28,906 nucleotides of DNA from a virus. The stretch is taken from the IMG/VR virus record IMGVR_UViG_3300047998_000076, positions 1 through 28,906 of that record. One strand, 5' to 3'. This document shows, in pieces, positions 1 through 24,722 of this stretch. The notes beneath the pieces are model-generated. The model had not been told where the DNA came from, ran no database searches, and was given only the letters and a program-made list of their open reading frames with translations. Numbering within the stretch: the first letter of the stretch is position 1; each line of letters starts with the position of its first letter. Position numbers and translations under genes: made by a program.

Positions 1-1
1 T

Positions 2-121
2 GAAGGCGCGGGTATCTCATATGTAAAAGATGATTTAGAAAACGAAGTGGAGTTAACGGTAACTGATGAAGATGGTAGCCAGACTGTCATTGTTATTCCT
101 ATCGGCGATTTTGGTTTCTAG
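2..121 (+). CDS. csgF: CsgF-like curli assembly protein, C-terminal end only
   Basis: This is the last 39 codons of a gene that begins before the window; the frame is open from base 2 to the TAG at 119-121. The visible peptide includes ELTVTDEDGSQTVIV and ends IGDFGF. It matches in pattern the end of CsgF, where a strand rich in V/D is followed by L-x-V-T-D-x-x-x-G-Q-T and a short tail. CsgF is a secreted partner that caps the CsgG pore in curli systems. Its stop lies 56 bases inside the next gene, which encodes CsgG, and this tight pairing supports the call. Only the tail is visible, so the N-terminal CsgG-binding region cannot be checked. Confidence 0.6.
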   Translation, partial: EGAGISYVKDDLENEVELTVTDEDGSQTVIVIPIGDFGF

Positions 122-869
122 TTGCACGACCCACAAATGGGATGTCCCCTCGCAACCAGAATCAGCAAAAGTTCAAGTGGCTCTTCTGACAGAAGAATTA
201 CAGAATATTGAACCTCCGATACGAAGACCAACGGTGGCGTTATATGCGTTCACCGACCAAACAGGACAGAAGAAACAAAACGCAAACGGCGGAACATCAT
301 TTAGTTCTGCGGTTACCCAAGCACCAGAAGTTTATCTGATTCGTGCTTTGACTCGTGCGGCTAACGGTCAGTTCTTTAAGGTGGTTGATAGGTCTGCACT
401 AGATTGGTTAACGAGAGAGAGACAACTCATAAGACAGACACGAAGTTCTTATGAAGGTGATGGTGCAAAAAAATTACCGGCATTGACCTTTGCTGGTATG
501 ATAATTGCAGGCGGTATAGTAGGATATGACCACTCTACCGAAAGCGGAGGTGCGGGTGCGAGATATCTCGGCATCGGCTCTTCCAGAGAGTTTAGTCGTG
601 ACACAGTGACAATCAACATGAGGTTGATAAGTGTTGCGACTGGCGAGGTTTTACTTGATGTCATAACAAGTAAGACCATACTATCTGTCGCGTTTGGCGG
701 AGACGTATTTCGTTATGTGGAACAGGGCACTCGACTCGTTGAGATTGAGTCTGGGACTGCCCGAAACGAAAGCGTTTCGATTGCCACTCAACGAGCGATT
801 GAAACAGGTGTCTTAGAACTTATAAAACTCGGAAATAGAAAAAAGTTCTGGACATTCAAAGGAGAGTAA
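66..869 (+). CDS. csgG: CsgG-like curli secretion pore lipoprotein
   Basis: The product has 267 residues, close to the usual size of CsgG (about 270-280). CsgG is an outer-membrane lipoprotein that forms a nonameric pore for export of curli subunits. The N-terminus is a lipoprotein signal ending LVSSC with Cys20 as the lipidation site. The family pattern follows: RRPTVALYAFTDQTGQ, then VTQAPEVYLIRAL, then FFKVVDRSALDWLTRERQLI, the GMIIAGGIVGYD strand, and RDTVTINMRLISVATGEVLL. ATG at 66 is chosen; ATG at 72 would shorten the signal peptide slightly. The gene overlaps csgF by 56 bases and is followed after one base by a curlin-like gene. CsgG homologues are, from memory, known in a few marine myophages, so the family is secure, but its role in a phage is not established. 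Confidence 0.92.
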   Translation: MKMVARLSLLFLSAILVSSCTTHKWDVPSQPESAKVQVALLTEELQNIEPPIRRPTVALYAFTDQTGQKKQNANGGTSFSSAVTQAPEVYLIRALTRAANGQFFKVVDRSALDWLTRERQLIRQTRSSYEGDGAKKLPALTFAGMIIAGGIVGYDHSTESGGAGARYLGIGSSREFSRDTVTINMRLISVATGEVLLDVITSKTILSVAFGGDVFRYVEQGTRLVEIESGTARNESVSIATQRAIETGVLELIKLGNRKKFWTFKGE

Positions 870-870
870 G

Positions 871-1608
871 ATGAACACTTTACAAAGAATTTTTGTGATG
901 TTGTTCCTAGTAAACGCAGGGACATCGCCCGTATGGGCTGATAATGCGGTCTACATTGACCAAGTAGGGTCAGGTGTAGATATCGATGTTACTCAAGACG
1001 GTAGTGGAAACACAATTAGTAACAATGCTAATGACACAACCAAAATGAAGGTTGATGGCGATGACATCAATTTGAGTATCGATACCGTTGGTGATACCAA
1101 CAAAGTTCTTGGTGCTATTATAGGTGACAACAGTGATGTTGATTTAGACATCGATGGCGACACCAATACAGTCACAATCGACATTGATGGAACTGACACC
1201 TATGGTGCTGGTAACGGCAATGTGGTAATCGATTTGGACGGCGGTAATAACACACTGGACTTGAGCATTGGTAACAACGACCAAGCAACGGGCGCAGATG
1301 TTGACTGGATTGTTGACGGTGACTATAACAGTGTAACTGCTGATATTGACATCAACAACGCAACAAATAGCATTGACTTCGCTGGAGACAATGTAACAAT
1401 CGATTATGATGGTGACGGATATGATGGTCACTCTGTAACAATCGATGGCGTTGGAACAACAAACTACTGGGATATTCAAATAGACCAACAGTCAACGTTA
1501 CAGTCTGATACATTGAGCATTGAAATCGAGGGTTCAGGTGACACGACTACAGATAATACCTTATGTGTTTCTCAGTCTGATTCTGGCACCGCTACCGGCT
1601 GTCAGTAA
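871..1608 (+). CDS. Secreted curlin-like Asp-rich repeat protein (candidate CsgA/CsgB-type fibre subunit)
   Basis: The product has 245 residues with a Sec signal peptide ending VWA at residue 23. The mature protein is made of repeated short beta strands separated by G/N/D turns, such as VDIDVTQDGSGN, VDLDIDGDTNTVTIDIDG and VVIDLDGGNNTLDLSIG. The first unit keeps the curlin-like pattern IDQVGSG and Q-D-G-S-G-N. In later units the curlin Gln positions are mostly Asp, making the chain very acidic. Two Cys lie near the C-terminus (CVSQSDSGTATGC). AAAGGAG at 858-864 is a strong ribosome binding site six bases before ATG 871. Position right after csgF-csgG suggests it is the cargo of that pore (inference). 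The main alternative is an unrelated secreted beta-solenoid adhesin. Confidence 0.7.
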   Translation: MNTLQRIFVMLFLVNAGTSPVWADNAVYIDQVGSGVDIDVTQDGSGNTISNNANDTTKMKVDGDDINLSIDTVGDTNKVLGAIIGDNSDVDLDIDGDTNTVTIDIDGTDTYGAGNGNVVIDLDGGNNTLDLSIGNNDQATGADVDWIVDGDYNSVTADIDINNATNSIDFAGDNVTIDYDGDGYDGHSVTIDGVGTTNYWDIQIDQQSTLQSDTLSIEIEGSGDTTTDNTLCVSQSDSGTATGCQ

Positions 1609-2644
1609 GGATGTCGGTCTCATAGACCGTGCAGTCGGCTGGAGACAAGTAGTTAGAGACACAAATGAAATCGAACCTGAAAAGGGGTTTGATATAATAG
1701 CAAAAGACGACCTTCGCACAGGCGAGGGGCGTATGCAAGTGAAGTTCGTTGATGATTCGAAACTTCGCATGACCGAACACACACGCATTGTGATTGACAA
1801 TGTGGTGTTTGATGATGACCCAAGTAAGTCTGACCTTGCAATGACATTCGCGCAGGGAACTGCTCGTTTCATTACGGGTAAACTTGGGACGATTGAGAAA
1901 GAGAATATTAGATTGAGAACACCGACTGCCTCAATCGGTATTCGCGGCACAGACTTTACTGTGACCGTAGACGAGTTTGGTCGCACACTTGTAGTATTAT
2001 TACCTGATGTGAATGGTATATCATCGGGTGAGATTATTGTTTCGACAATGACTGGTGAGGTAGTGTTGAACAAACCGTTTCAATCCACCACAACCTCTGT
2101 GACTGAGGCGCCTCCCAGCAATCCTGCCATTCTAGACTTGACTCTAGATATGTTGGATAATATCTTGATTATCAATCCACCCAAAGAGAGAATGACAGAA
2201 CAAGAGTTCTATACGTCTGTGGACAGTCGTAAGAATATCAATCCTCTTGATATTGACTTTCTCGATGAACAACTATTAGATAACGAGGAGTTTGAACGTG
2301 ACTATCTGGAATTTACTGAACTTGATATCAATTTCCTTGATGTGGAACTCCTCGAAAACCTATTAGATAGTTACTCTGACCTAGATGCAGAATTGTTGAA
2401 AGAGAAAGAGGATAAGAGTGATACTGTCGTAGAAGGGACGAGTGAGGGCTTTGACACGGTGACTCAAATCAGCACCGTTGTTGAGGGCGATAAGATTACG
2501 ATGATTCGTAATGTTCAATCTATCGTGGAGATATCTGTTTCGAACAGCGAAGAGACATCTATAAATCTAGATGTTGATGGAAAGGAACTTGACCCCATTA
2601 CGGTCAATGGTGGCGGTAATACCACTATAAGTATTAAACAATGA
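1538..2644 (+). CDS. FecR-domain periplasmic protein with acidic C-terminal repeats
   Basis: I choose GTG 1538 as start because GAGGG at 1528-1532 lies five bases upstream and a signal peptide follows at once (TRLQIIPYVFLSLILAPLP, cleavage near AVS/KD); TTG 1520 is an alternative. The product is about 368 residues. A FecR domain follows: AVGWRQVVRD, then LRTGEGRMQVKFVDDSKLRM, and IRLRTPTASIGIRGTDFTV, the hallmark RTP-x-A-x-x-G-I-R-G-T. The C-terminal third has two similar acidic units (LDIDFLDEQLLDNEEF and LDINFLDVELLENLLD). FecR domains are periplasmic sensor or scaffold modules, and stand-alone ones often sit beside CHASE2 cyclases in bacteria. The first 71 bases overlap the curlin-like gene in another frame, and the stop overlaps the cyclase start (ATGA). 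Confidence 0.85.
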   Translation: MTRLQIIPYVFLSLILAPLPAVSKDVGLIDRAVGWRQVVRDTNEIEPEKGFDIIAKDDLRTGEGRMQVKFVDDSKLRMTEHTRIVIDNVVFDDDPSKSDLAMTFAQGTARFITGKLGTIEKENIRLRTPTASIGIRGTDFTVTVDEFGRTLVVLLPDVNGISSGEIIVSTMTGEVVLNKPFQSTTTSVTEAPPSNPAILDLTLDMLDNILIINPPKERMTEQEFYTSVDSRKNINPLDIDFLDEQLLDNEEFERDYLEFTELDINFLDVELLENLLDSYSDLDAELLKEKEDKSDTVVEGTSEGFDTVTQISTVVEGDKITMIRNVQSIVEISVSNSEETSINLDVDGKELDPITVNGGGNTTISIKQ

Positions 2645-4473
2645 AAACATGGCATGTCCTTATTACACTGGGGTTGATGATAACCCTGAGACTGCTCGAC
2701 CCCTTTCTCCTTGAAAGTGCGAGACTGTCTTTCTTTGACTCGATGCAAAGAGGACAGGAATCAAAACAATCTGAACAGATTGTCCTTATTGATATTGACG
2801 AATCGACCCTAGAGAAGTTCGGTCAGTATCCAATCCCCCGCGAAACAATGGCAGACGAGTTGGCAAAACTTGGCAATCAGTCAGTGTTAGGTATCAATAT
2901 CTTATTATCAGAACCAGACAGGTTCGGAGGGGATGACGCATTTTCAAATATGTTGTTTGAAATGGAAGCGGTAATTGCTATTGCACCAAGCGATAAGACA
3001 AACACAGACTCCCGACCAACACCTGTAGGTGTGGCAACATTCGGTGACCGCGATGCGGTAGAGTTTCGACCTGAACTAGATGGGATGTTATTTGCACTAC
3101 CTGACTTCATGACAACTGCAATGGGTCATGGAACAATCTCTGCAACACAGGATATCGATGGTATCACACGGAGAGTTCCTCTGATTGAGAACTTCGAGGG
3201 TCGCATGTATCCTGCCTTTGCACTGGATATCCTTCGCGTGGCTGCGGGTGACATATCATATCAAATCAAGACAGACGATTACGGAATACGATTTGTTCGC
3301 ATACCGAAGTTTGATGTAGTGCAGACAGACGATAATAGTAATGTGCGTATCGCATTCTGGAATGAGTTCAAGAGATATTCTTTCACAGAGATAGACCAGA
3401 TACCAAGCGGAAGTATTGCGATACTGGGTGCGACCTTTAAGGGGACATCTGTCGTATCAACTCCTGTCGGTGCGATGTATCCGCATGACATTCAGGCGAA
3501 CCTGTTGAAGACGATGATTGATGGTGTGACTATCATACGGATGCCAGAGTTCAAGTTTTATGAACTTTTCGCAACGATTTTAGTGTCAATAATGATACTA
3601 TTCATGTTATCTAAACTCTCTATCGTCATTTCGGGGGTATTTTTCCTGATTATCAGTTCAAGTTTCGTGAATGGTGCATCACTGATATTCGACAATACCT
3701 TTATGCTTCTTGACCCCATTTTCCCTGTTATAACATTTGTTATAATCTTTGCACATGGTTCGTTTGTCCAGTTCTATACACAATTCAAAGCGAAACAAAT
3801 GATTAAGGGTCAGTTCGGAACGTATCTAAGTCCTGACATGGTTGACATGCTTGCTAACGACCCGTCACTGATGAAACTGGGCGGTGAACGCAAAGAGATG
3901 ACATTCTTGTTCATGGACATCTGTGGATTCACCCCGATATCAGAACACTACAAAAACAACGATGACCCCGAAGGATTAGTTAATCTAATCAACGAATACC
4001 TGAACGAGATGACCAACATCATTCTACACAACGGTGGAACTATAGATAAGTATATGGGCGATTGTATTATGGCGTTTTGGAACGCCCCTCTACCATGTGA
4101 GAATCATGCAGAGATGGCAGTGAAGTCTGCTATCGAGATAGAGGAGAAGACAAATGAACTTAAAAAGAAATATGAGTCTCGCGGTCTCCCGCCTATTAAT
4201 GTGGGGACTGGCATTAATACTGGCGATTGTATTGTTGGAAACATGGGCTCTGAAAGCAGATTCGACTATTCGGTCATTGGAGATGCCGTCAACCTTGCCG
4301 CAAGACTCGAAGCGACTGCCGCAAGAGAAGACTATGTTGATTTCAAAACAATCTATTCCAGTCACACAATGGAACAACTCACCGATATCAAGTCAAGACC
4401 TATAGGTAAAATCAAGGTCAAGGGTAAAGATGAATTGATTGAGATATACACACATGATACAGATAATCGATAA
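2641..4473 (+). CDS. Membrane CHASE2-domain class III nucleotide cyclase (probable adenylate cyclase)
   Basis: This 610-residue protein has one N-terminal membrane segment (about 5-25), a large extracytoplasmic CHASE2 sensor (QIVLIDIDESTLEKFGQYP and later VLGINILLSEPDRFGG are typical), then about three membrane helices near 305-375, then a cytoplasmic cyclase domain. The catalytic set looks complete: metal-binding Asp426 (FLFMDICGFT) and Asp474 (DKYMGD), Lys470 at the purine-specificity position that favours ATP, and Asn551/Arg555 (VNLAARLE) for the transition state. Ser544 stands where bacterial adenylate cyclases usually have Thr or Asp. Making cAMP is therefore likely but not certain. The start overlaps the FecR gene by four bases (ATGA), so the two are probably coupled: FecR in the periplasm and CHASE2 as receptor. 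A phage-borne membrane cyclase is very unusual. Confidence 0.9.
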   Translation: MKTWHVLITLGLMITLRLLDPFLLESARLSFFDSMQRGQESKQSEQIVLIDIDESTLEKFGQYPIPRETMADELAKLGNQSVLGINILLSEPDRFGGDDAFSNMLFEMEAVIAIAPSDKTNTDSRPTPVGVATFGDRDAVEFRPELDGMLFALPDFMTTAMGHGTISATQDIDGITRRVPLIENFEGRMYPAFALDILRVAAGDISYQIKTDDYGIRFVRIPKFDVVQTDDNSNVRIAFWNEFKRYSFTEIDQIPSGSIAILGATFKGTSVVSTPVGAMYPHDIQANLLKTMIDGVTIIRMPEFKFYELFATILVSIMILFMLSKLSIVISGVFFLIISSSFVNGASLIFDNTFMLLDPIFPVITFVIIFAHGSFVQFYTQFKAKQMIKGQFGTYLSPDMVDMLANDPSLMKLGGERKEMTFLFMDICGFTPISEHYKNNDDPEGLVNLINEYLNEMTNIILHNGGTIDKYMGDCIMAFWNAPLPCENHAEMAVKSAIEIEEKTNELKKKYESRGLPPINVGTGINTGDCIVGNMGSESRFDYSVIGDAVNLAARLEATAAREDYVDFKTIYSSHTMEQLTDIKSRPIGKIKVKGKDELIEIYTHDTDNR

Positions 4474-4945
4474 TTTCCTAGATGAAGAACTCTGGGATGA
4501 ACTGATTGAAGACTATCATCGATGTCGTATGTATAGTGCATATGAATATGGTGAGAGACTAGGCAGTGAGTATTATAGAGTTCAGTCTTGGGTGGGGTGT
4601 TATCGTAGTGATAATCTGACAGACATTTATTCAGAAGTGACAGAGAAAATAAAAGGCGAACTGGGTATTGAAGTTCAAAAGATGACCTTCTTCAAACATC
4701 CTAAAGAGAGTTTTCCCGAACCGATGACATACGGCATGAATATTCCTCAACACATCGATGCGAATTTCGAAAGGTCGGGGGTTCTCTACATGGTAGGAAA
4801 AGAAGGTATGGGGACAACTATCAAGGATGAATATGTAGAGTGGCAACCAAATCGTGCAATTGCATTTGACGCACAGACTTATCATAATCCAAACTTTGGT
4901 GGAAAAGATAGGATTTCTTTAACTTTTTTTGGAAAAAAGACTTGA
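4454..4945 (+). CDS. 2-oxoglutarate/Fe(II)-dependent oxygenase, small phage type
   Basis: I start at ATG 4454, 20 bases inside the cyclase gene; a TTG at 4439 in the same frame is less likely. The product has 163 residues. It shows the 2OG oxygenase facial triad and co-substrate residue: His100 and Asp102 in QHIDAN, His144 in AQTYHNPNFG, and an Arg near 154 in DRISLTFF that would bind 2-oxoglutarate. The opening IIDNFLDEELWDELIEDY is the usual N-terminal helix of phage and marine prolyl-hydroxylase-like enzymes. The substrate is unknown. The stop codon overlaps the -35 box of the next promoter, so this gene may close the upstream transcription unit. Confidence 0.8.
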   Translation: MIQIIDNFLDEELWDELIEDYHRCRMYSAYEYGERLGSEYYRVQSWVGCYRSDNLTDIYSEVTEKIKGELGIEVQKMTFFKHPKESFPEPMTYGMNIPQHIDANFERSGVLYMVGKEGMGTTIKDEYVEWQPNRAIAFDAQTYHNPNFGGKDRISLTFFGKKT

Positions 4946-4970
4946 CATTTTATTCTTGTTGTGATAATAT
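4942..4970 (+). promoter_or_regulatory. Strong sigma70-like promoter
   Basis: TTGACA (4942-4947) and TAATAT (4965-4970) are separated by exactly 17 bases. The next gene, encoding a DUF932 protein, starts 35 bases after the -10 box with a clear AAGGAG site. The -35 box overlaps the stop codon of the upstream oxygenase. The match to a host housekeeping promoter suggests early transcription. Confidence 0.85.
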
Positions 4971-5004
4971 AAGAACATAATCACAAACTAGAAGGAGATT
5001 GATT

Positions 5005-5955
5005 ATGGCACATGCAGTAGAAACAATGGCGTATGCGGGAGAAGTTCCGTGGCACGGACTTGGTGTTCCTGTATCGAATGACCTGACTCCCCGTCAGATG
5101 ATGGATAAGGCTGGTCTGGACTGGACGGTTGAGAAGGAAGACCTTGTAACATCGTCTGGCGCAACAGTGGAAGGCAAACAAGCACTTGTGCGTTCCTCTG
5201 ACAACAAGGTTCTGGATGTCATCGGTAAAGGATGGAATCCTGTTCAGAATGAAGAAGCATTTGAGTTCTTCTCTGAGTATGTCCTTGCGGGTGACATGGA
5301 AATGCACACCGCTGGTTCACTCAAAGACGGTAACATGGTGTGGGGTCTTGCAAAGGTGAAAGATACCTTTGATATTCTTGGTGGTGACCAAGTTGACTCA
5401 TATCTCTTGTTTTCCAATCCACACCAGTATGGTAAGTCAATCGACATTCGGTTCACACCGATTCGTGTAGTGTGCAATAACACATTGTCACTCTCACTTG
5501 GTCAGAAGGTTGCAAACTCGGTGTCTCTGAACCACCGCACTACATTCAATCCTGACTCAGTAAAAGAGACTTTGGGTATTGCATCTGAAAAGTTTGCACA
5601 ATACAAAGAGACCGCAGAGTTTCTTTCATCCAAACGTTTTGGTATTAGCGAATTGATTCAATACTACAACGAAGTATTCCCTCGCACCTATCAAGGTAAG
5701 AAGGAAGTCAATGTCAAGACTGTTGGAGACCTGACTACCAATGCTCAAAAAGCATACGAGGTTCTGGAAACTCAGCCTGGCGCAGAGTTCGGTGAAGGAA
5801 CATGGTGGCAGGCACTGAACAGTGTGACCTACCTGACCGACCACCAGATGGGTCGTGAGGCAGACACACGTTTGACTTCTGCATGGTTTGGTTCAAACCA
5901 GACACGCAAAGTCCGTGCTGTAGAAAAAGCGGTGGAGTATGCACTCGCCGCTTAA
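5005..5955 (+). CDS. DUF932 (phage/plasmid-like) protein
   Basis: ATG 5005 is chosen because AAGGAG (4992-4997) lies seven bases upstream; TTG 4999 is unlikely. The 316-residue product follows the DUF932/phage-plasmid protein pattern: AYAGEVPWHGLGVPV at the N-terminus, VIGKGWNPVQNEEAFEFF, then IDIRFTPIRVVCNNTLSLSL in the middle, and NSVTYLTDHQMG with a final short basic helix. Members occur widely in phages and plasmids, with no settled biochemical function. It is the first gene after a strong sigma70-like promoter, which fits an early role. The next gene begins 17 bases before this one ends. Confidence 0.85.
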   Translation: MAHAVETMAYAGEVPWHGLGVPVSNDLTPRQMMDKAGLDWTVEKEDLVTSSGATVEGKQALVRSSDNKVLDVIGKGWNPVQNEEAFEFFSEYVLAGDMEMHTAGSLKDGNMVWGLAKVKDTFDILGGDQVDSYLLFSNPHQYGKSIDIRFTPIRVVCNNTLSLSLGQKVANSVSLNHRTTFNPDSVKETLGIASEKFAQYKETAEFLSSKRFGISELIQYYNEVFPRTYQGKKEVNVKTVGDLTTNAQKAYEVLETQPGAEFGEGTWWQALNSVTYLTDHQMGREADTRLTSAWFGSNQTRKVRAVEKAVEYALAA

Positions 5956-6583
5956 AAATATCAAAGTCTTGGGAGAGGTTGACGTAATCACTTACGTCAA
6001 TCTCTTTTCAAATATCGATGATAGAGATTGGATGGGTGAATTCAATAAATTCACTAAACATTATATTCCAGGCTTCCAAGAACTTGAAATACTCCCTATG
6101 TTATATTCTCTCAAGAAGACACATGTAACTAAATTTAGAGACGATTATACTGTTGAGGAAGCCGCAAGTAATTGGTCGATTGATAACGCAGTGGACTATA
6201 GAACAGGCGGTGGTCTTGGCGAAGATTATGTTACCTTGAAAGGTAGGTTGTATGAAAAGTTTTATGATGAAAGATTACTGACCGATATAAAAAAATTACT
6301 ATCCGATAAATTCGGTGACGGAACAATCAGTATGTTTTTGTTAAACCTTATGAATCCACATTCAAATATTGAACCACATGTTGATGATACAACAGGAAAC
6401 AAAAGGCGTATACACATACCACTCGTAACACACCCTGATATTAAATTTCGTAACGGTAATGATGAGATACATATGGAAGTTGGTAAGGTTTATTTGTTTG
6501 ACCATGAAAAAGAACACTCAGTCATAAATCCAACAGATTATGAACGTATTCATCTGATAATGGATTGGAGACCAAATGATTAA
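5939..6583 (+). CDS. Aspartyl/asparaginyl beta-hydroxylase-like 2OG oxygenase, paralogue 1
   Basis: The 214-residue product ends with a complete Asp/Asn beta-hydroxylase-type core: PHVDD with His147 and Asp149, then RRIHIPLVTHPDIKF, then VGKVYLFDHEKEHSVIN with the distal His193, and ERIHLIMDW with Arg203 as likely 2-oxoglutarate ligand. Related domains hydroxylate Asp/Asn side chains; some act on small molecules or lipids. The N-terminal 120 residues are specific to this pair. ATG 5939 overlaps the DUF932 gene by 17 bases. A GGTGGAG stretch lies almost on top of the ATG, so the start is somewhat uncertain. The next gene is a diverged copy of this one. Confidence 0.8.
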   Translation: MHSPLKNIKVLGEVDVITYVNLFSNIDDRDWMGEFNKFTKHYIPGFQELEILPMLYSLKKTHVTKFRDDYTVEEAASNWSIDNAVDYRTGGGLGEDYVTLKGRLYEKFYDERLLTDIKKLLSDKFGDGTISMFLLNLMNPHSNIEPHVDDTTGNKRRIHIPLVTHPDIKFRNGNDEIHMEVGKVYLFDHEKEHSVINPTDYERIHLIMDWRPND

Positions 6584-7102
6584 AGTTCTTGGTGAAGTTG
6601 ATGTAAGTTATTATATTAATCTCTTCTCTAATATTGATGATGCAGACTGGATAGATGAATTTTCAAAATTCAGTAAAAAATATATTCCTTTCTTTCGAGA
6701 ATTGGATAGACTGCCACTTTTGTTAAATATGAGAAAAGACTATGAAAATAACTATGAAAGTATTGAAGAGATTATTACTACTTCAGACGTTGGTAATAAT
6801 CATGATGTTGTTGAGTTTCTAAATGAAGGCGACTTAAATGATGACATAACCATTAAAGGCAAATTCTACGAAAAATATTACAACAAAAAGTTTTTCGATG
6901 AACTTTTCGAAGTTGTCAGAAATGAGTTCGGTGATGGACAATGTATGACATTGATTTTTAATTTAATGAATCCTCACTCTAGGATTTATCCACACGCAGA
7001 CGAGAGAACTGGTAATAAGAAACGTATACATATTCCTATCATTACACATCCTGATATTAAGTTTCGTAACGGTAATGATGAGATACATATGGAAGTTGGT
7101 AA
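6446..7102 (+). repeat. Direct 41-base repeat within the two tandem hydroxylase genes
   Basis: Bases 6446-6486 and 7062-7102 are identical over 41 positions, beginning TTTCGTAACGG and ending GAAGTTGGTAA. The identity reaches further upstream with a single mismatch (A against G). The surrounding parts of the two genes differ at many third positions. The repeat encodes the stretch from FRNGNDE to MEVGK in both proteins. It marks recent duplication or gene conversion. Confidence 0.9.
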
Positions 7103-7199
7103 AGTATACAAAATAGAACATTCTATAGAACACTCTGTTGATAATCCGACAGATTGTGAACGTATTCATTTAGTGATTGATTGGAAGATTAATGATTAA
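6576..7199 (+). CDS. Aspartyl/asparaginyl beta-hydroxylase-like 2OG oxygenase, paralogue 2
   Basis: This 207-residue protein is a tandem copy of the preceding gene. Both share (I)KVLGEVDV near the start, NLFSNIDD, the YEK(F/Y)Y centre and the same core. The catalytic set is intact: PHAD with His140 and Asp142, HSVDN with His186, and ERIHLVIDW with Arg196. The start ATG lies inside the stop region of the first copy (ATGATTAA, 8-base overlap), suggesting translational coupling. Part of the core is identical to copy 1 over 41 DNA bases, far more than the rest of the gene. The substrate is unknown; two intact copies may form a heterodimer or act on two substrates (inference). Confidence 0.8.
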   Translation: MIKVLGEVDVSYYINLFSNIDDADWIDEFSKFSKKYIPFFRELDRLPLLLNMRKDYENNYESIEEIITTSDVGNNHDVVEFLNEGDLNDDITIKGKFYEKYYNKKFFDELFEVVRNEFGDGQCMTLIFNLMNPHSRIYPHADERTGNKKRIHIPIITHPDIKFRNGNDEIHMEVGKVYKIEHSIEHSVDNPTDCERIHLVIDWKIND

Positions 7200-7353
7200 A
7201 TTATTAAACTGGATTGGTAGAGTTTTCTCTACTCAAGATATCGACTATGAGGAAACTCTAGGCGAGGAAGCTCGTCCTCATTGGGTGAAAAACGATGATG
7301 ACGAATATATTGAAGCAATGTTAAATAGTGAAAAGGTTATAACAGATGATTAA
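7192..7353 (+). CDS. Small acidic protein of unknown function
   Basis: This is a 53-codon gene between the second hydroxylase and the peroxiredoxin. It begins with ATGATTAAA overlapping the previous stop by 8 bases and ends by overlapping the next start by 8 bases. The N-terminus MIKLLNWIGRVFS is amphipathic and mildly hydrophobic. The rest is acidic and polar (DYEETLGEEARPHW, NDDDEYIEAML). I recognise no family. Overlaps at both ends and the lack of any other use for this 150-base stretch support it as real. The amphipathic start could associate with a membrane or a partner protein (speculative). Confidence 0.65.
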   Translation: MIKLLNWIGRVFSTQDIDYEETLGEEARPHWVKNDDDEYIEAMLNSEKVITDD

Positions 7354-7915
7354 AGGTGTAACATTACCTCAAGTAACATTTCCAACCCGTGTTCGTAATG
7401 ATGAACTGGGTGGAGACAACCCATTTGAATGGCGGAACGTGAGCAGTTCGTTTCTGTTCGGTAGTCAAGATTTGAAAAAACGTGTGGTGGTGTTCTCACT
7501 GCCAGGCGCATTTACTCCAACATGTTCGACATATCAATTACCTGACTTTGAGAAACTCGTGGCAGAAGGTGAGTTTGGGAAGTATGGTATCGATGATATT
7601 TACTGCGTATCAGTGAATGACACATTTGTAATGAACTGTTGGGCAAAAGACCAGAACCTCGAACATGTCAAAGTCGTGCCAGATGGCACGGGTGAGTTCA
7701 CTCGCAAGATGGGTATGTTGGTTGACAAGTCGAATATCGGATTTGGTATGCGGTCATGGCGTTATGCGATGATTGTCAAAAACGGTGTGGTTGAGGAATT
7801 CTTACCAGAGCCAGGGTTTGCAGACAATCATGGTGAAGACCCATATGGCGAATCATCTCCACAGAATGTTCTAAAAGTTCTTGAAGGACTCGAAGTTTCG
7901 GGCGCCCCTGTCTAA
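7346..7915 (+). CDS. Peroxiredoxin, Prx5/AhpE-like thiol peroxidase
   Basis: The 189-residue protein has the peroxiredoxin active site PGAFTPTCSTYQLPDFE, with peroxidatic Cys60 and Thr57. The Prx5-type features around it are VVVFSLPG before the site, IYCVSVNDTFVMNCWAKDQ after it, and GFGMRSWRYAMIVKNGVVE towards the end. Cys90-region and Cys98-region cysteines in YCVSVNDTFVMNCW could serve as resolving partners, but reduction by glutaredoxin or thioredoxin is also typical. It would remove hydroperoxides in the infected cell. It sits downstream of three Fe(II)/2OG oxygenases in a chain of overlapping genes, so protection of iron enzymes during infection is a plausible context. Peroxiredoxins are known in some marine T4-like phages. 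Confidence 0.9.
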   Translation: MIKGVTLPQVTFPTRVRNDELGGDNPFEWRNVSSSFLFGSQDLKKRVVVFSLPGAFTPTCSTYQLPDFEKLVAEGEFGKYGIDDIYCVSVNDTFVMNCWAKDQNLEHVKVVPDGTGEFTRKMGMLVDKSNIGFGMRSWRYAMIVKNGVVEEFLPEPGFADNHGEDPYGESSPQNVLKVLEGLEVSGAPV

Positions 7916-7944
7916 GTCATTGATATTATTGTGAAACAAAGTTC

Positions 7945-7973
7945 TTGACAATTTCTGCCGAGGCCTTTAATAT
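7945..7973 (+). promoter_or_regulatory. Sigma70-like promoter
   Basis: TTGACA (7945-7950) and TAATAT (7968-7973) have a 17-base spacer. The 85-base gap after the peroxiredoxin gene contains nothing else obvious. AGAGG at 7991-7995 precedes the first ATG at 8001. Boxes and spacing match the promoter at 4942 closely. Confidence 0.85.
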
Positions 7974-8000
7974 AAAGGTATAGTGAGAAGAGAGGTTGTT

Positions 8001-8447
8001 ATGGAAATTTACTTGGAAGACAATGGATATGACGTTGAGGATTACATCAACGCTGTAGCCGCTGTTCTTGTCCTTGACCAATATGAAGGTGACCTTCGCA
8101 TCGAACTCAAAAGAAAATGTGATGCAGATGCTGGTGGTTACTGTTATGGTGACGAGGATGATATTGATATCGAGATTGCTACGCACGTTCAAGGCGAAGC
8201 GCTCGATATCGATACCATCAAAGTGAATATCGCTCATGAGATGGTTCATGCTCAACAGATTGCAAGTGGTCGTTTGAAAGACCACGGTATCAAGATTATC
8301 GATGACCGTCTGGTCAAAGTTGCAGAGTGGGATGGTGAGTATCATACGAATACGAAGTATGATGACCAACCGTGGGAAATCGATGCGTATGGTCGTGAAG
8401 CACAAGTAGCACAAGAAGCAAAGGAGATGCTGGCACAATGGATGTAA
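8001..8447 (+). CDS. Zinc metallopeptidase-like protein (HExxH)
   Basis: ATG 8001 with AGAGG five bases upstream is chosen over a GTG at 7983. The 148-residue product has a zincin helix IAHEMVHAQQIASG with His79, Glu80 and His83; a later acidic helix (PWEIDAYGREAQVAQEA) could supply the third ligand. The size and layout fit small SprT-like or phage-associated peptidases, but I cannot place it in a specific family. The first third is strongly acidic (EDNGYDVEDY, GDEDDIDIEI). It is first in a sigma70-driven unit and overlaps the next zincin gene by 10 bases. Confidence 0.7.
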   Translation: MEIYLEDNGYDVEDYINAVAAVLVLDQYEGDLRIELKRKCDADAGGYCYGDEDDIDIEIATHVQGEALDIDTIKVNIAHEMVHAQQIASGRLKDHGIKIIDDRLVKVAEWDGEYHTNTKYDDQPWEIDAYGREAQVAQEAKEMLAQWM

Positions 8448-9028
8448 ACTTGAAACAGGCGTATAATGAATATCTGCGAAAGCATCGGTTCAAACAGAAT
8501 CGTGGTGCTAATGGTCGTAATGATACTGAAAAGTCCAAGACCTATCAGGCAGAGTTTGCTTTCCAGAGACGATACAAAGTCAAAGACTTCAAGACTATTG
8601 AGGAAGCACAGAAACGTGCGAAACAAATCTACAAGACCAAAAAGTGGCAGAAGGTTTGGAAACTAGAAAGTCGCACAGACCGTGACCTTATAAAACAACC
8701 CGCAGTCGTTCTCAAAGAACGTAACACAGGTAGAGGTTTTGCTGGTTGGACTGATGGTTGGGCAGTAGTCCTAGATAGTAAAGCAGGGTTGGATGAATAC
8801 ACTCTGTTGCATGAGTTGACACACTGTTTGGGTCACATGCATCATGGTCGTTCTTTCCGCCGTGCTTTGTTGGAACTAGTCGGTGCATTCATCGGTGCAG
8901 ATGCCAAGAAGATACTCAAGGAAGAGTTTACCAAACGCAAACTCAAGTATGGTGTAGCTCGTCAACCATTGACCTACACTCAGTGGAATGCCGCACGAAA
9001 GAAAATGGAAAAGATACGAAATGTTTAA
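8438..9028 (+). CDS. Putative metallohydrolase with HExxHxxGxxH motif
   Basis: The 196-residue product contains LLHELTHCLGHMHHGRSFR, giving His125, Glu126, His129 and His135 as zinc ligands and base in an HExxHxxGxxH arrangement like that of metzincins. The N-terminal half is basic and rich in aromatic residues (YNEYLRKHRF, YQAEFAFQRRYKVKDF), and the C-terminus is a basic helix. It resembles the small putative metallohydrolases seen in actinobacteria and phages (the TIGR04338 style), though I cannot confirm membership. It follows another HExxH protein and precedes a nuclease, all in one overlapping transcription unit. The target is unknown. Confidence 0.7.
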   Translation: MDVNLKQAYNEYLRKHRFKQNRGANGRNDTEKSKTYQAEFAFQRRYKVKDFKTIEEAQKRAKQIYKTKKWQKVWKLESRTDRDLIKQPAVVLKERNTGRGFAGWTDGWAVVLDSKAGLDEYTLLHELTHCLGHMHHGRSFRRALLELVGAFIGADAKKILKEEFTKRKLKYGVARQPLTYTQWNAARKKMEKIRNV

Positions 9029-9701
9029 TCATCAACCTACACAACTCAATGAAATGGAATCGGTCACCACGGAGAAGGGTCGCAAGTATAAGACCCCCGA
9101 AGGGATTGACCTTCCGTCTATTACTACTGTCCTGTCTATTCTTTCGCGGGATAGTATCGCCGCATGGCGTAAACGGGTTGGTGAGGAAGAAGCAAATCGT
9201 ATCTCCCACCGTGCATCGTCACGGGGAACAAAGGTTCATGAAATCATCGAGAAGTATGTTGACAACGATGAAAATTACAAAGAGGGTTATACCCCCGATG
9301 TGATTGAGTCGTTTCTTATTATGAAACCAATTCTCGATGGTTTTATCGGCACAGTCTACGCACAGGAAGCACCTCTCTATTCAACTCACTTAGGCGTTGC
9401 TGGTCGCGTAGACTGTGTTGCCGAATTCGATGGACAACTATCTATCATCGACTTTAAGACCAGTCGCAAAAAGAAAAAGAAAGACTGGGTGAAGAATTAT
9501 TTCATGCAAGAGGCTGCATATGCGGTCATGTGGGAAGAACGCACGGGACAACCTATCACCCAACTCGTTACACTTATCAGTGTTGACGGTGAAGACAAAC
9601 CACAAATCTTTGTCGAACATCGAGACAATTGGATTAATTCTTTGCGTGATACCATCAAAAAGTATAATGAAGAACAAGATTCGACTTCCATTTTATTATA
9701 A
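9021..9701 (+). CDS. RecB/MGME1-type PD-(D/E)XK exonuclease
   Basis: ATG 9021 is preferred because it gives an 8-base overlap with the previous stop; an in-frame ATG at 8988 lies well inside the upstream gene. The 226-residue product shows the RecB nuclease motif order: SSRGTKVHEIIEKYV with His73/Glu74, VAGRVDCVAEFDGQ with Asp131, SIIDFKTS with Asp144 and Lys146, and QEAAYAVMW with Gln163 and Tyr167. A run of lysines follows the DxK motif. Such enzymes degrade or process DNA ends in recombination or host-DNA breakdown. It closes the unit started by the promoter at 7945; its stop overlaps a late promoter. Confidence 0.85.
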   Translation: MFNHQPTQLNEMESVTTEKGRKYKTPEGIDLPSITTVLSILSRDSIAAWRKRVGEEEANRISHRASSRGTKVHEIIEKYVDNDENYKEGYTPDVIESFLIMKPILDGFIGTVYAQEAPLYSTHLGVAGRVDCVAEFDGQLSIIDFKTSRKKKKKDWVKNYFMQEAAYAVMWEERTGQPITQLVTLISVDGEDKPQIFVEHRDNWINSLRDTIKKYNEEQDSTSILL

Positions 9702-9704
9702 ATA
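9697..9704 (+). promoter_or_regulatory. T4-type late promoter TATAAATA
   Basis: TATAAATA overlaps the stop of the nuclease gene and lies 34 bases before the ATG of the first late-block gene. In T4-like phages this box is read by a phage sigma-like factor. A second A/T-rich element (TATAAT at 9709-9714) lies just after it. The gene downstream begins with a capsid-targeting-like peptide, which agrees with late expression. Confidence 0.75.
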
Positions 9705-9738
9705 GTGGTATAATACTATTTGTGTAAATAGGAAATCG

Positions 9739-10806
9739 ATGCAAAAGTTTGACAATTTCATTACAGAAGCACTGAAGGCTGAGGACTATGAGGCAGCGAT
9801 TGTCATGGGGTTCTATGAACTCACTGGCAAACCGATGACTAGTGCAGACCACGGCATCTCTGATAAAGTTTTCAAAGCAATTCAAGAAAACCCTCAAGCA
9901 CAAGAGGCGGGTCGTAAGATTGCTCAATCAGTTCTAAATAAGTATCCAAAACTCAAGAAGGGAAAGGCAGAACAGTATGGTCGTGCGAAAGCATCTCTAA
10001 CTTCTTTTTGGAAATCTTATGGTGCAAGTGATATTACACCCAAAACAGATGTTCTCATAGGTGATATGAGATTCTCTGTTAAAATTGGTCTGGCACAATT
10101 GATGTCGGGTGGTAAATCAGAGTCAACTGCAACATTCGAAGCCGCCATCAAAAATTCTAATCCAGACCTTGTAAAATCTCCACAATATGAAAAAACCACC
10201 GAAGTTCTTGAAGGGTTTGTAAAAAATACTCTTGCACCATCTCAACTAAGACCGATAATCAAAGCAGGAACGAATGAAGTAGTCAATCGTGCAGAGAAGG
10301 CGCATAAGGATGCAATGTCAGAACTAGGTGCGATGTTTGATGAATCCAAATCTTTCAAAGTTGAATTTGCACGAGAGGCGATGTCTGGGTTTGAAAAGTT
10401 TGGTGAAAACTCTAATGCGGCCGCAGAGTTTATGTTGGTTGCATCGGCTGACGGCGATAAGGTTGTTATTCATTCTGTTTATGATGATGACTATTGTCTC
10501 AAAATTGCGAATGCAATGAAATTGCAGGCGAGGTTCAAAACCTCATCTCGTAAGATAAAGGGAAAGAAAACTGGTGAGTATAATTTCTGGTCAGTGATAT
10601 CCTTAATTGTAGATTCGATGCAAGAGGGTTATGAACATGACCAAGAAGAACTTTTGATAGAAGTATCCATTATGAGAAAAATTGGTAACTTTGTGAGAGG
10701 GACTTGGAGTAAGGTCTCATCATATTTCAAGAAAGGTGCGAGTAAACTCTATAAGTTTCTCGGCGCAACCCCAATAATTTCAACAAAGAAAAATATTAGG
10801 TTTTAG
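9739..10806 (+). CDS. Probable packaged protein with PD-(D/E)XK-like domain
   Basis: The 355-residue product starts MQKFDNFITEALKAE. This matches the T4 capsid-targeting sequence (F-x-x-F-I-x-E-A), with a prohead-protease site I-T-E/A at residues 9-11. A central region reads TPKTDVLIGDMRFSVKIG, followed by a G- and S-rich LMSGGKSES. Asp104 and Lys115 are placed as in PD-(D/E)XK nucleases, but the acidic residue two before the Lys is Ser113, so catalysis is doubtful. The C-terminal end is basic. If targeting is right, the protein is cut during head maturation and injected with DNA (inference). It leads the late block behind TATAAATA. Confidence 0.6.
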   Translation: MQKFDNFITEALKAEDYEAAIVMGFYELTGKPMTSADHGISDKVFKAIQENPQAQEAGRKIAQSVLNKYPKLKKGKAEQYGRAKASLTSFWKSYGASDITPKTDVLIGDMRFSVKIGLAQLMSGGKSESTATFEAAIKNSNPDLVKSPQYEKTTEVLEGFVKNTLAPSQLRPIIKAGTNEVVNRAEKAHKDAMSELGAMFDESKSFKVEFAREAMSGFEKFGENSNAAAEFMLVASADGDKVVIHSVYDDDYCLKIANAMKLQARFKTSSRKIKGKKTGEYNFWSVISLIVDSMQEGYEHDQEELLIEVSIMRKIGNFVRGTWSKVSSYFKKGASKLYKFLGATPIISTKKNIRF

Positions 10807-10808
10807 TA

Positions 10809-12041
10809 ATGACAACGATACTTCATATCCCAGATTTTCTTTACGAACAAAAGAATACTCACATGACTCATATTGAGGACAAGGTTCTCTATGGTGGTGT
10901 GAACGGGACTCGTCAGGCAATCAATGCATTGCGTGAACTTCGTGACATGCTTGCGGGTGAGACTAGTTCCAAACTGTCGGTCAAGTGGGACGGTGCGCCT
11001 GCAATCTTCTGTGGTCAAGACCCACGCGATGGTGAGTTCTTTGTTGCGAAGAAAGGTATCTTTGCCAAGAACCCGAAGGTTTACAAGACTAATGACGAGA
11101 TTGACGCAGACATGTCAGGCGACCTTGCAGATAAGATGAAAGCCGCACTACGTTACCTTCCTGAACTGGGCATCAAAGGTGTCATTCAGGGAGACTTCTT
11201 GTTCTCAAAAGGAGACTTAAAGAATGAAGATATTGAGGGTCAACGCTATACAACCTTCCACCCCAACACAATCATATACGCAATCCCATACGAACAGGCA
11301 GAAGCAGTTCGCAAAGCGCAAATCGGAATCGTCTGGCACACAACCTACAACGGAAAAGACTTTGAAAGCATGAAGGCATCCTACGGTGTCGATGTATCGA
11401 AGTTCAAGTCTTCAAAGAACGTATACTCTGCTGATGCGATGTTACGCGAAACTGGTGGTGCGACAATGAATGCAAAAGAGACTGCCGCTGTCACTAAACA
11501 CCTATCAGATGCGGGTAAGATATTCAATAAGATTTCTGGTTCGACTTTGCGTGAGTTAGAAGGTAATCCAGACCTTGCACAACTCATCGAACAATATAAC
11601 AATACATATGTGCGTGAAGGACAGATGATTCCAAACAGTCGTAGTCATGTGACGGGTCTTATTAGATGGATTAATACAAAGTTCAAAGCAGAGATGGACA
11701 AGCGTAAATCAGAGAAGGGACGCATGGTTCAACAGGCAAAGTTGGACGAAATCATGAAGTTCTTCTCCACAAAAAACAAAAAGTCGCTGATAAACATGTT
11801 TGAACTACAGAAAAATATTGTATTAGCAAAACTAAAACTTATAAATAAACTTAATAGTATTGCAAAGTATGATGCATTTGTGCAAACTAAAAAAGGATAC
11901 AAGGTTCGCACCGGCGCAGAAGGTTTTGTCGCTATTGATAAATTAGGTGGTGATGCGGTCAAGTTGGTTGACCGCCTTGAGTTTTCGTATAACAACTTCA
12001 GTCCAGATATACTGAAGGGATGGGAAAAACCAAAGAGGTAG
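10809..12041 (+). CDS. ATP-dependent ligase-like nucleotidyltransferase (KxDG; DUF6267-like)
   Basis: The 410-residue protein carries motifs of the covalent nucleotidyltransferase superfamily (DNA/RNA ligases and capping enzymes). Motif I is KWDGAP with nucleophile Lys59. A motif III-like stretch GVIQGDFLFSKGD surrounds residue 128. Motif IV is AEGFVAIDK with Glu371 and Lys378, and AVKLVDR follows as a possible motif V with Lys385. The N-terminus HIPDFLYEQKNTHMTHIED has F-L-Y-E, a weak version of the capsid-targeting peptide seen in neighbours. Similar proteins in marine T4-like phages are grouped, as I recall, as DUF6267. Whether it seals DNA, RNA or modifies another target cannot be told. 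Confidence 0.75.
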   Translation: MTTILHIPDFLYEQKNTHMTHIEDKVLYGGVNGTRQAINALRELRDMLAGETSSKLSVKWDGAPAIFCGQDPRDGEFFVAKKGIFAKNPKVYKTNDEIDADMSGDLADKMKAALRYLPELGIKGVIQGDFLFSKGDLKNEDIEGQRYTTFHPNTIIYAIPYEQAEAVRKAQIGIVWHTTYNGKDFESMKASYGVDVSKFKSSKNVYSADAMLRETGGATMNAKETAAVTKHLSDAGKIFNKISGSTLRELEGNPDLAQLIEQYNNTYVREGQMIPNSRSHVTGLIRWINTKFKAEMDKRKSEKGRMVQQAKLDEIMKFFSTKNKKSLINMFELQKNIVLAKLKLINKLNSIAKYDAFVQTKKGYKVRTGAEGFVAIDKLGGDAVKLVDRLEFSYNNFSPDILKGWEKPKR

Positions 12042-12045
12042 TAAG

Positions 12046-12492
12046 ATGGCTAAACCAATGAGCCTGAAAACATTTTTGAATGTGGACTACACCCAAACGG
12101 GTGATGAGTTCCAAGCAACCAACGCGAAGAAAAGAAAACGCGATTCTGGTGAAGGCACTCACGAAGCACTCAGTATGCAACAACGCCTAAAACTCGCGCG
12201 CTCTCTCAAGAAAAATAAAGCAAAAATTGCAATGGGTCGCAAACGTGCTGCCCGTAAAGTTGCATCTACTGATAAATTGAAAACAAGAGCGCAGAAACAA
12301 GCACGAAATACCTTCCTCAAGAAAATGACTAAAGGTGTTGAAAAAGGTGAACTCTCAATGGCTCGTAGACAGGGACTTGAGAAACGCCTAGATAAACTGA
12401 AACCAAAGATTGATAAACTAGCGAGAAAACTTCTTCCGAAGGTTCGTAAAGCAGAAATCGCGAAGAAACGAGGAAATCAACAAAGTGATTAA
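12046..12492 (+). CDS. Basic coiled-coil head-associated protein
   Basis: The 148-residue protein is very basic and almost wholly helical in pattern. It begins SLKTFLNVDYTQTGDEFQ, which could be a degenerate head-targeting peptide. Then come Lys/Arg-rich segments such as GRKRAARKVASTDKLKTRAQ and ARRQGLEKRLDKLKPKIDKL. From memory, this RKRAARK...DKLK.RAQK.AR pattern recurs in T4-like marine phages near head genes. A role in DNA compaction or in the prohead core fits the charge and location (inference). It overlaps the next gene by 8 bases (GTGATTAA). Confidence 0.65.
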   Translation: MAKPMSLKTFLNVDYTQTGDEFQATNAKKRKRDSGEGTHEALSMQQRLKLARSLKKNKAKIAMGRKRAARKVASTDKLKTRAQKQARNTFLKKMTKGVEKGELSMARRQGLEKRLDKLKPKIDKLARKLLPKVRKAEIAKKRGNQQSD

Positions 12493-19818: not shown

Positions 19819-19982
19819 AGAGTTTTAGAGAATTTATGGGCACATCTGCGGTTGCGGGTGCGGGAGAAAATCCAGAAAAGATTGTCCCTGTCCATATGAA
19901 AAAGAAAAAGAAGAAGGATATTGAAGTCCTCAAAAGATTTATAGATAAACGTGAAGAAAGTAAAACATATTGGAGTAAATAA
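19815..19982 (+). CDS. Small basic protein with capsid-targeting-like N-terminus
   Basis: The ATG at 19815 overlaps the previous stop (ATGA), and the stop shares a base with the next ATG. The 55-residue product starts MKSFREFMGTSAVAGAGE, with F-x-x-F-M in the position of the T4 targeting peptide but no Glu at the usual cleavage site. It is then strongly basic (VPVHMKKKKKKDIEVLKRFI). It could be a packaged DNA-binding peptide. Confidence is limited by its size. Confidence 0.65.
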   Translation: MKSFREFMGTSAVAGAGENPEKIVPVHMKKKKKKDIEVLKRFIDKREESKTYWSK

Positions 19983-20440
19983 TGTTAAGTGGATTATTAG
20001 GTAGTGTGTTAGGGTTTGGTGGTTCGGTTGTCCCTGCTATCACAGACCATTTCAAACAAAAAGGTCAACAGAAGTTTGAACTAGAAAAAATGAAAACTAT
20101 GGCAGAACTGCGTAAAGCAGGGTTCGACCATGAGTTAAGGGCATGGGAAGCACAGGCCGCAGATAATGAACATGATAGGTTAATTCAACATGATATCTCT
20201 ATTAATCAAGGCACAGGGTTTATTGCTGGTTTACAGAAGTCAGTTCGCCCTATTATCACATACTGTTTTTTTGGGTTGTTTGCTGTTATTGAGATAACAC
20301 TCCTAATGGAGGCATTAGAGAAGGGAACAGACTTCGCTGATGCAATTAATATTCTCTGGGATGACGATACAAAAGCAATCTTCGCTGCCATTATCTCGTT
20401 CTGGTTTGGTTCTCGTGCGATTGATAAGGCTCGTAGATAA
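19982..20440 (+). CDS. 3-TM holin-like protein (GTA_holin_3TM-like)
   Basis: The 152-residue product has an N-terminal hydrophobic/amphipathic stretch (LLGSVLGFGGSVVPAITDHF), a charged helical hairpin (FELEKMKTMAELRKAGFDHE), then two membrane segments, SVRPIITYCFFGLFAVIEIT and KAIFAAIISFWFGSRAI. This order and the SVRP before the first helix are typical of the '3TM holin for gene-transfer-agent release' group. It would form the inner-membrane lesion at lysis if it is a true holin; no endolysin is visible nearby. It is followed with a one-base overlap by an outer-membrane protein gene. Confidence 0.75.
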   Translation: MLSGLLGSVLGFGGSVVPAITDHFKQKGQQKFELEKMKTMAELRKAGFDHELRAWEAQAADNEHDRLIQHDISINQGTGFIAGLQKSVRPIITYCFFGLFAVIEITLLMEALEKGTDFADAINILWDDDTKAIFAAIISFWFGSRAIDKARR

Positions 20441-24317: not shown

Positions 24318-24722
24318 ATGTGGATGTATGAAAATAAAGTATTTGAACCAGTAGACGAATTCCTTGAAGAATATCAGGGGTTCGTCTACTGTATTACAAA
24401 TCTACAGAACGGTAAAAAGTATATTGGTAAAAAGTTTTTCTGGAAACCCAAAGTGTTACCCAAGACAAAAACCAGAAAGAGAAAAGTGAGGACAAGAGTC
24501 CAGTCTGATTGGCAAAGTTACCACGGGTCTTCTGGCGCCGTTCTAGACCTATTAGAACAGGGTGTTTCCTTCAATCGAGAGATACTACGACTTTGTAAGA
24601 CTAAAGGTGAATGTTCTTACTATGAGGCAAAACTGCAATTTGAAAATGACGTATTGTTAAATGATGACTACTACAATGAATTCATCGGGTGTAAAATACA
24701 CTCAAGACATCTTAAATCGTGA
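24318..24722 (+). CDS. GIY-YIG nuclease-like protein
   Basis: ATG 24318 is taken as start; 24324 is nearly equal, and an upstream ATG at 24282 lies inside the zinc-ribbon gene. No clear ribosome site is visible. The 134-residue product has GFVYCITNLQNGKKYIGKKF, where VYC and YIG are the two GIY-YIG strands, then a basic segment (KTKTRKRKVRTRVQSDWQSY), and SYYEAKLQ with a Glu in the expected later helix. I recognise relatives in T4-like phages. It may be a free-standing homing-type or a repair nuclease. It lies between nrdB and an unusual ANL gene pair. Confidence 0.75.
   Translation: MWMYENKVFEPVDEFLEEYQGFVYCITNLQNGKKYIGKKFFWKPKVLPKTKTRKRKVRTRVQSDWQSYHGSSGAVLDLLEQGVSFNREILRLCKTKGECSYYEAKLQFENDVLLNDDYYNEFIGCKIHSRHLKS

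Follow-up and report, generated by a model that had tools for sequence, protein, structure and literature searches.

The left end of a viral record from IMG/VR (IMGVR_UViG_3300047998_000076; 28,906 bp, used whole and itself a fragment, here called the window) carries at positions 2-4473 a single plus-strand run of five genes, coding for CsgF, CsgG, a curlin-like secreted protein, a FecR-domain protein and a CHASE2 class III nucleotidyl cyclase. The run is a further example, in a Kyanoviridae-like phage from the sea, of a type VIII secretion (curli) module already described for phages, and, judged from sequence, its FecR protein ends in a curlin-like strand, a short motif which is not a curlin repeat. 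Combined with curli export and with a cyclase signal to the host, this tail may serve to read the state of the fibre or of its export, a joint reading to which we give slightly less than an even chance. All five features had been named in a first-pass annotation of the same DNA, and all are present.

The C-terminal strand of the phage FecR protein

The FecR-domain protein (374 aa; 1520-2644, plus strand; PF04773, 1.1e-11) starts with TTG, with an alternative GTG at 1538. Its AlphaFold2 model (mean predicted local distance difference test score, pLDDT, 74; predicted template modelling score, pTM, 0.49) consists of an N-terminal hydrophobic helix, the FecR domain at about residues 33-192, a low-confidence linker and a region at residues 301-374 which is strand-rich at a pLDDT of about 80 within the full-length model. 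The curlin-like strand, recognized by motif conservation, comprises the last 13 residues (VNGGGNTTISIKQ; 2603-2641, plus strand). The C-terminal motif of phage FecR proteins is G-x-x-N/T/S-x-I-x-I-x-Q. In 45 aligned proteins, which reach down to 23% identity with the one in the window, G365 is kept in 40, N/T/S368 in 41, I/V370 and I/V372 in all 45 and Q374 in 44. The motif lies within the last 14 residues in 85 of 95 phage FecR proteins, fragments included, and in 16 of 22 divergent representatives, for which shuffling gave a mean of 0.85 and a maximum of 5 in 2,000 trials. Five of the six representatives without the motif still end in hydrophobic-x-hydrophobic-x-Q, and the sixth (L045; such L-numbers are labels of compared contigs and records) lacks the Q.

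Per 1,000 positions the motif occurs 7.8 and 16.7 times in curlins, 2.7 times in the body of FecR, 0.56 times in CsgG and 0.35 times in the cyclase, and it is not found at the end of any of the nine bacterial FecR partners of CHASE2 cyclases that were fetched. Aligned with hhalign to the two phage curlin families, the C-terminal region of FecR scored 27.5 and 22.5; 60 column shuffles each gave means of 9-10 (standard deviation 1.6-1.7, maximum 14.5) and reversal gave 11-14, and the same region scored 15.8 with the cyclase and 14.5 with CsgG. With a matrix from E. coli CsgA and CsgB, the best-scoring segment of FecR was C-terminal in 51 of 92 proteins (1.3 expected), and this was so in none of 96 CsgG, one of 93 cyclases, three of 90 CsgF and none of six bacterial FecR proteins.

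Several results speak against tying this tail to curlins. The motif stands at the very end of none of the 104 members of the first curlin family and of four of the 31 members of the second; the hhalign probability for the match between FecR tail and curlin is low (8-34%); the Pfam repeat Curlin_rpt is reported in none of the 45 FecR proteins at E<=10. The median best segment of FecR under the E. coli matrix (4.7 bits) is below those of the cyclase (5.2), CsgG (6.4) and the six bacterial FecR proteins (6.7), and the curlins (10.5 and 12.9 bits) are far above it. The matrix favours the FecR tail in place, not in height. It is because of the low hhalign probability, the missing Pfam repeat and the modest matrix score that we call the tail curlin-like and not a curlin repeat. 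No description of it was found in PMC9599517 (this and the other papers named by PMC number are cited from their accessible parts) or in the literature on curlin and FecR, where subscription journals and preprints were poorly covered.

The curli module and its phage carrier

The record is cut inside csgF, therefore the genes upstream of it are missing, and what remains of csgF are the last 39 codons and the stop (2-121, plus strand; phrog_35372 positions 120-158, 1.1e-6). This fragment aligns with the C-terminal ends of CsgF from Pelagibacter phage HTVC008M and Methylophilales phage Melnitz; in contig L102 the whole protein has 175 aa and matches Pfam CsgF (PF10614, 3.6e-13). csgG (66-869, plus strand) codes for a 267-aa homologue of the outer-membrane curli secretion pore (PF03783, 2.3e-45; phrog_20175, 2.4e-60) with a lipoprotein-like N-terminus (LVSSC, by eye), 47% identical to that of HTVC008M and 39% to that of Melnitz by tblastn. 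The genes are tightly packed: csgF and csgG overlap by 56 nt, csgG and the curlin gene are 1 nt apart, the curlin and FecR genes overlap by 89 nt with the TTG start at 1520 or by 71 nt with the GTG at 1538, and the FecR and cyclase genes overlap by 4 nt. This order on a single strand, csgF-csgG-curlin-FecR-adenylate cyclase, matches the module definition in PMC9599517. Going by homology, CsgG and CsgF would export the curlin-like protein.

That protein (245 aa; 871-1608, plus strand), a predicted beta-solenoid, was recognized by its tblastn matches with genes annotated as curlin in HTVC008M (1e-7) and Melnitz (6e-8). It has no Pfam match at E 0.01, and neither has the first curlin of HTVC008M. 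Curlin_rpt matches 29 of 37 members of its family at E<=10 (best 2.7e-5), and the family profile matches the second phage curlin family at 99.65%. The AlphaFold2 model has 19 short strands (mean pLDDT 79.2, pTM 0.77). Foldseek gave no match at E<=0.001; in a further structure comparison the closest solved folds were parallel beta-helices, the top one 5awg_B, a chain of the SufB-SufC-SufD complex (Z 17.1, root-mean-square deviation (rmsd) 2.8, 193 residues aligned). Curlins are missing from the listed structural matches, and this speaks neither for nor against a curlin fold. The second curlin gene of HTVC008M (L002:6639-7964) has a PA14 domain match (2.7e-6) beside its curlin repeat match and is possibly a sugar-binding part of the fibre.

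In the phage collection cyclase, CsgG, FecR and curlin all match in two operons, those of HTVC008M (two records) and Melnitz (four records). Other matches were to the cyclase domain in two Acinetobacter phage records, and a csgG match was seen in OR851715.1 (1,499 bp, called Salmonella phage S.Kent 1-2-1), which is possibly host DNA. HTVC008M (NC_020484.1) has the same strand and order, csgF-csgG-curlin-FecR-(second curlin)-adenylate cyclase, with proteins 31-47% identical to those of the window, and Melnitz (MZ577097.1) has the gene order of the window; both differ from it by a second curlin gene, which in HTVC008M lies between FecR and cyclase. Novelty of the module as such is thus ruled out. 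The first-pass annotation had seen curli export genes coupled with a FecR/CHASE2-cyclase pair, and this stands; its view that a curlin and a cyclase beside CsgF and CsgG would be unfamiliar does not, since both are already annotated in HTVC008M and Melnitz and PMC9599517 describes the whole set in pelagiphages, FecR and adenylate cyclase included. Reports of curli genes in marine phages go back at least to 2020 (PMC7029224, which claims the first report). According to PMC9004378, Melnitz lacks csgA and csgB; contrary to this, its record annotates two curlin-repeat proteins, of 26.0 (the first curlin) and 21.8 bits, both above the Pfam cut-off. Curli are reportedly lacking in the hosts of HTVC008M and Melnitz. 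With E. coli csgBAC/csgDEFG the phage module shares CsgG and CsgF homologues and putative curlin-type repeats, whereas CsgD, CsgE and CsgC are not annotated in the HTVC008M and Melnitz regions, and no FecR or cyclase is annotated in the E. coli curli stretch.

The carrier is a T4-like (Kyanoviridae-like) marine phage. Apart from the module, the window (GC content 41%; no tRNA in a tRNA scan and no match in an Rfam scan) consists of phage genes such as those for an exonuclease, a DUF6267 protein, a cytidyltransferase, ribonucleotide reductase and a SegE-type endonuclease. The DUF6267 protein has matches in 468 phage records, mostly of cyanophages, and the best of them (64%) is Phage C48C1 (Kyanoviridae), in which peroxiredoxin, exonuclease, cytidyltransferase, ribonucleotide reductase and an annotated NAD synthetase follow in the order of the window; C48C1 is absent from the seven phage records with a CsgG match. 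We found no evidence for a chimeric assembly or a host insertion as the source of the module, and its probability is next to nil, because matching contigs and isolates carry the same junction or order and would all have to share a single error. Contig L102, also from IMG/VR, is 100% identical to window positions 1-12,470, across the junction, L084 is 99.8% identical, L004 and L085 are 99.9% identical over 4,398 bp, and L086, from another metagenome, is 94-95% identical (the metagenomes behind these contigs may not be independent samples); the gene order is also that of the isolates HTVC008M and Melnitz. The T4-like phage context reported in the first-pass annotation is thus genuine, as is the junction. 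Elsewhere in the window, two tandem proteins at 5939-7199, related by eye, the first of which matches Asp/Asn beta-hydroxylase, have a GC content of 35% and 30% against 41% for the window and are possibly a recent duplication or import, and sub-threshold matches were seen to a GTA-type holin (19982-20440; PF11351, E 0.002) and to an AMP-binding enzyme (24661-25929; PF00501, 1.3e-5). Upstream of the module in L102 lies a gene for a plastocyanin/azurin-type copper protein (L102:1923-2360; PF00127, 3e-15).

Around the best 80 of 122 CsgG relatives from viral contigs, CsgF lies upstream of CsgG in all 79 loci with room for it. Of the 37 loci with room on the other side, 36 have curlin, FecR and cyclase downstream, and only L076 differs, with these three on the opposite strand; around the best 80 of at least 525 cyclase relatives, CsgG, curlin and FecR lie upstream of the cyclase in 47 of 48 (in L149 CsgG is not in view). 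These counts are not independent, since some contigs belong to both sets and members of the module went into the profiles. Eleven of the 37 loci showed a second curlin, which is probably an undercount. The four complete genes and FecR residues 301-374 are under purifying selection: the ratio of nonsynonymous to synonymous substitution rates (dN/dS) against L086, L117 and L108 is 0.095-0.22 for the genes, with overlapping frames unmasked, and 0.07-0.14 for the FecR region. Against L103 dS is saturated for three of the four genes, with dN/dS 0.16 for CsgG and 0.18 for the FecR C-terminal region. Module genes split into two frames, by sequencing error or decay, were seen for the cyclase in L108 (7980-9816) and L163 (4825-6663), for CsgG in L006 (6514-7297) and for FecR in L140 (4438-5589).

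Directly 5' of csgF, a pair of paralogous proteins of 82-115 aa, which belong to PHROG 18771 and carry an N-terminal hydrophobic stretch, is encoded in each of L102, HTVC008M and Melnitz. The tandem pair in L102 (4441-4970; 93 and 82 aa, no Pfam match at E<=10) includes one weakly holin-like protein. With a profile built from these six proteins, relatives were found upstream of csgF in 115 of the 120 loci with 1.3 kb before csgF (two in 89, one in 26, none in five), and six copies lie elsewhere in the 120 loci. They are probably unannotated parts of the module. PMC9599517 mentions one or two histidine kinase (HK) genes before csgF in the podophage form, and describes HK and CsgA/B as short, diverged or paralogous; the PHROG 18771 proteins, too short for a kinase, might be what these HK genes encode. 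In the accessible parts of the papers cited here we saw no description of PHROG 18771-like proteins before csgF. In L054, a jumbo-size viral contig of 357,559 bp with the curli-FecR-cyclase module, no such pair was found nearby. Such small membrane proteins would suit another explanation, in which CsgG and CsgF are repurposed as a gated, pinholin- or secretin-like outer-membrane pore that times lysis, with the small proteins as inner-membrane partners and the cyclase as timer; PMC9004378 proposes a pinholin or secretin role and lysis timing for Melnitz. The holin similarity is weak (phrog_4898 at E 1e-4 and 5e-3 in two of the six proteins and 0.08 in a third), and a bare pore needs no curlin-like gene after csgG, which is nevertheless there in 36 of 37 loci and under purifying selection. 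We therefore regard this explanation as unlikely.

The CHASE2 cyclase and bacterial FecR cassettes

The 610-aa product of the last gene (2641-4473, plus strand) joins a CHASE2 sensor (PF05226, 1.2e-31) to a class III nucleotidyl cyclase domain (PF00211, 1.2e-19). The catalytic residues D426, K470, D474, N551 and R555 are all present; N551 is kept in 29 of 33 aligned phage homologues and the other four in all 33. We take these residues to have the metal, substrate lysine and arginine roles of such cyclases, and because the presumed substrate lysine is conserved, the product is most likely cyclic AMP (cAMP). The cyclase domain of Melnitz belongs to another subgroup, with D544 and S551 where the window has S and N. 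A phage-encoded cAMP effector was considered and rejected: the cyclic nucleotide-binding domain PF00027 occurs in none of three long viral contigs with the module, which may be incomplete.

From bacteria, nine of 584 records matching the CHASE2 cyclase, all of them alphaproteobacterial plasmid loci, and eight of 47 matching CsgG were fetched. In all nine cyclase loci a FecR match, weak in L185, adjoins the cyclase or is one gene off (L173), with the same strand as the cyclase in five (L174, L175, L176, L181, L185) and the reverse strand in four (L173, L182, L183, L184). CsgG was seen in none of these nine, and neither FecR nor cyclase was seen in the eight CsgG loci (up to 6 kb, some stretches shorter). 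For this reason the phage operon looks, from its gene content, like two bacterial cassettes joined; FecR adjacency is shared with the nine bacterial loci, while the curlin-like FecR tail is absent from them. A genome scan with CsgG is no census of bacteria, as its patterns derived from phage proteins, and it gave one locus, on a 6.8-kb contig in a metagenome-assembled genome. FecR-domain proteins are reported to cluster with CHASE2 cyclases in Campylobacterota (PMC9239204), and the BiofilmReg operon of Burkholderia, linked to biofilm, has FecR(LysM) and a CHASE2 histidine kinase (PMC5192318). It likewise pairs a periplasmic FecR-domain protein with a CHASE2 receptor, but its output is a kinase and not a cyclase, and curli are unmentioned in the accessible text. 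Near the cassette in Paracoccus pAMI5 (L176:212-2038) is a gene for a cyclic nucleotide-binding patatin-like phospholipase, a possible effector.

These cassettes bear on what the phage FecR protein does. PMC9599517 reads it as an iron regulator and has cofactor or siderophore import among its ideas; FecR would then be of the classical iron-citrate type, sensing iron or siderophores, and the pore would import nutrients. The FecR-domain fold is real, as the comparison with the PupR signalling domain shows (6ovk; Z 15.2, rmsd 2.6, 135 residues aligned). However, Pfam searches of 26 window proteins (several other open reading frames were left out and the record is a fragment) gave neither a sigma factor nor a TonB-dependent receptor. 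A classical FecR has a cytoplasmic anti-sigma segment before the FecR domain, and here the domain starts at about residue 33, which leaves little room for one. FecR domains are moreover found beside CHASE2 cyclases in bacteria, in the nine loci and in PMC9239204. An iron regulator is thus disfavoured, and we consider it quite improbable.

The tail region of FecR aligns with the C-terminal part of the curlin-like protein and was not seen in the nine bacterial FecR proteins away from curli, which would also fit a minor curli subunit or CsgB-like nucleator, held at the cell by the folded domain, with the cyclase reading something else. But the FecR gene overlaps the cyclase gene in the window, and bacterial FecR-CHASE2 pairs exist without curli, therefore signalling is favoured over an assembly role, and we think a nucleator improbable, if less so than an iron regulator.

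A proposed chain of export, read-out and signal to the host

The joint reading of export, read-out and signalling runs as follows. CsgG and CsgF would form an outer-membrane pore through which the curlin-like beta-solenoid leaves the infected cell, as their homologies suggest. A FecR and CHASE2-cyclase cassette, which in bacteria stands apart from curli, is joined to this operon, most likely as a source of cAMP. Since FecR carries a curlin-like C-terminal strand, its tail may bind curlin, either in the periplasm or at the pore; the FecR domain could then relay the occupancy of the tail to CHASE2 and so set the output of the cyclase. Because no cyclic nucleotide-binding domain was found in the three long module contigs, the signal would act on host proteins and adjust the infected cell during the coating of its surface; protection from co-infection or the timing of lysis would be its most plausible use. 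The read-out by FecR and the benefit to the phage are what we infer. CHASE2 cyclases in S. meliloti respond to a signal via an outer-membrane barrel (PMC13001267) and a cyclase version without CHASE2 makes cAMP constitutively (PMC5498481); these reports and the kept catalytic residues are the reason why we read pore, fibre, FecR with its fibre-like end and CHASE2 cyclase as one signalling chain. In the most specific form of this reading, a fibre checkpoint, curlin subunits or the growing fibre capture the FecR tail and the receptor reports curli export as a cyclic-nucleotide signal; we consider this form conceivable but doubtful.

Beside the low scores of the tail given above, the chain of export and signalling has to contend with three further observations. 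The curlin-like protein of the window reaches 15.4 bits with Curlin_rpt (E 0.018), whose cut-off is 20.7 bits; PMC9004378 reports no clumping of Melnitz-infected cells under its culture conditions; and the cyclase frame is interrupted in the 144-kb relative L108. As for the benefit, PMC9599517 and PMC7029224 propose superinfection exclusion and aggregation.

Curli genes in marine phages have so far been without agreed function. The FecR tail and the curli-free FecR-CHASE2 pairs of bacteria turn what could be described as curli plus regulators into a testable machine. If the fibre checkpoint is true, it would be a new signalling principle, in which a sensor detects an amyloid through a strand of that amyloid built into the sensor itself, it would explain why the phage keeps so many genes together, and it would offer a general design for amyloid-reading sensors.

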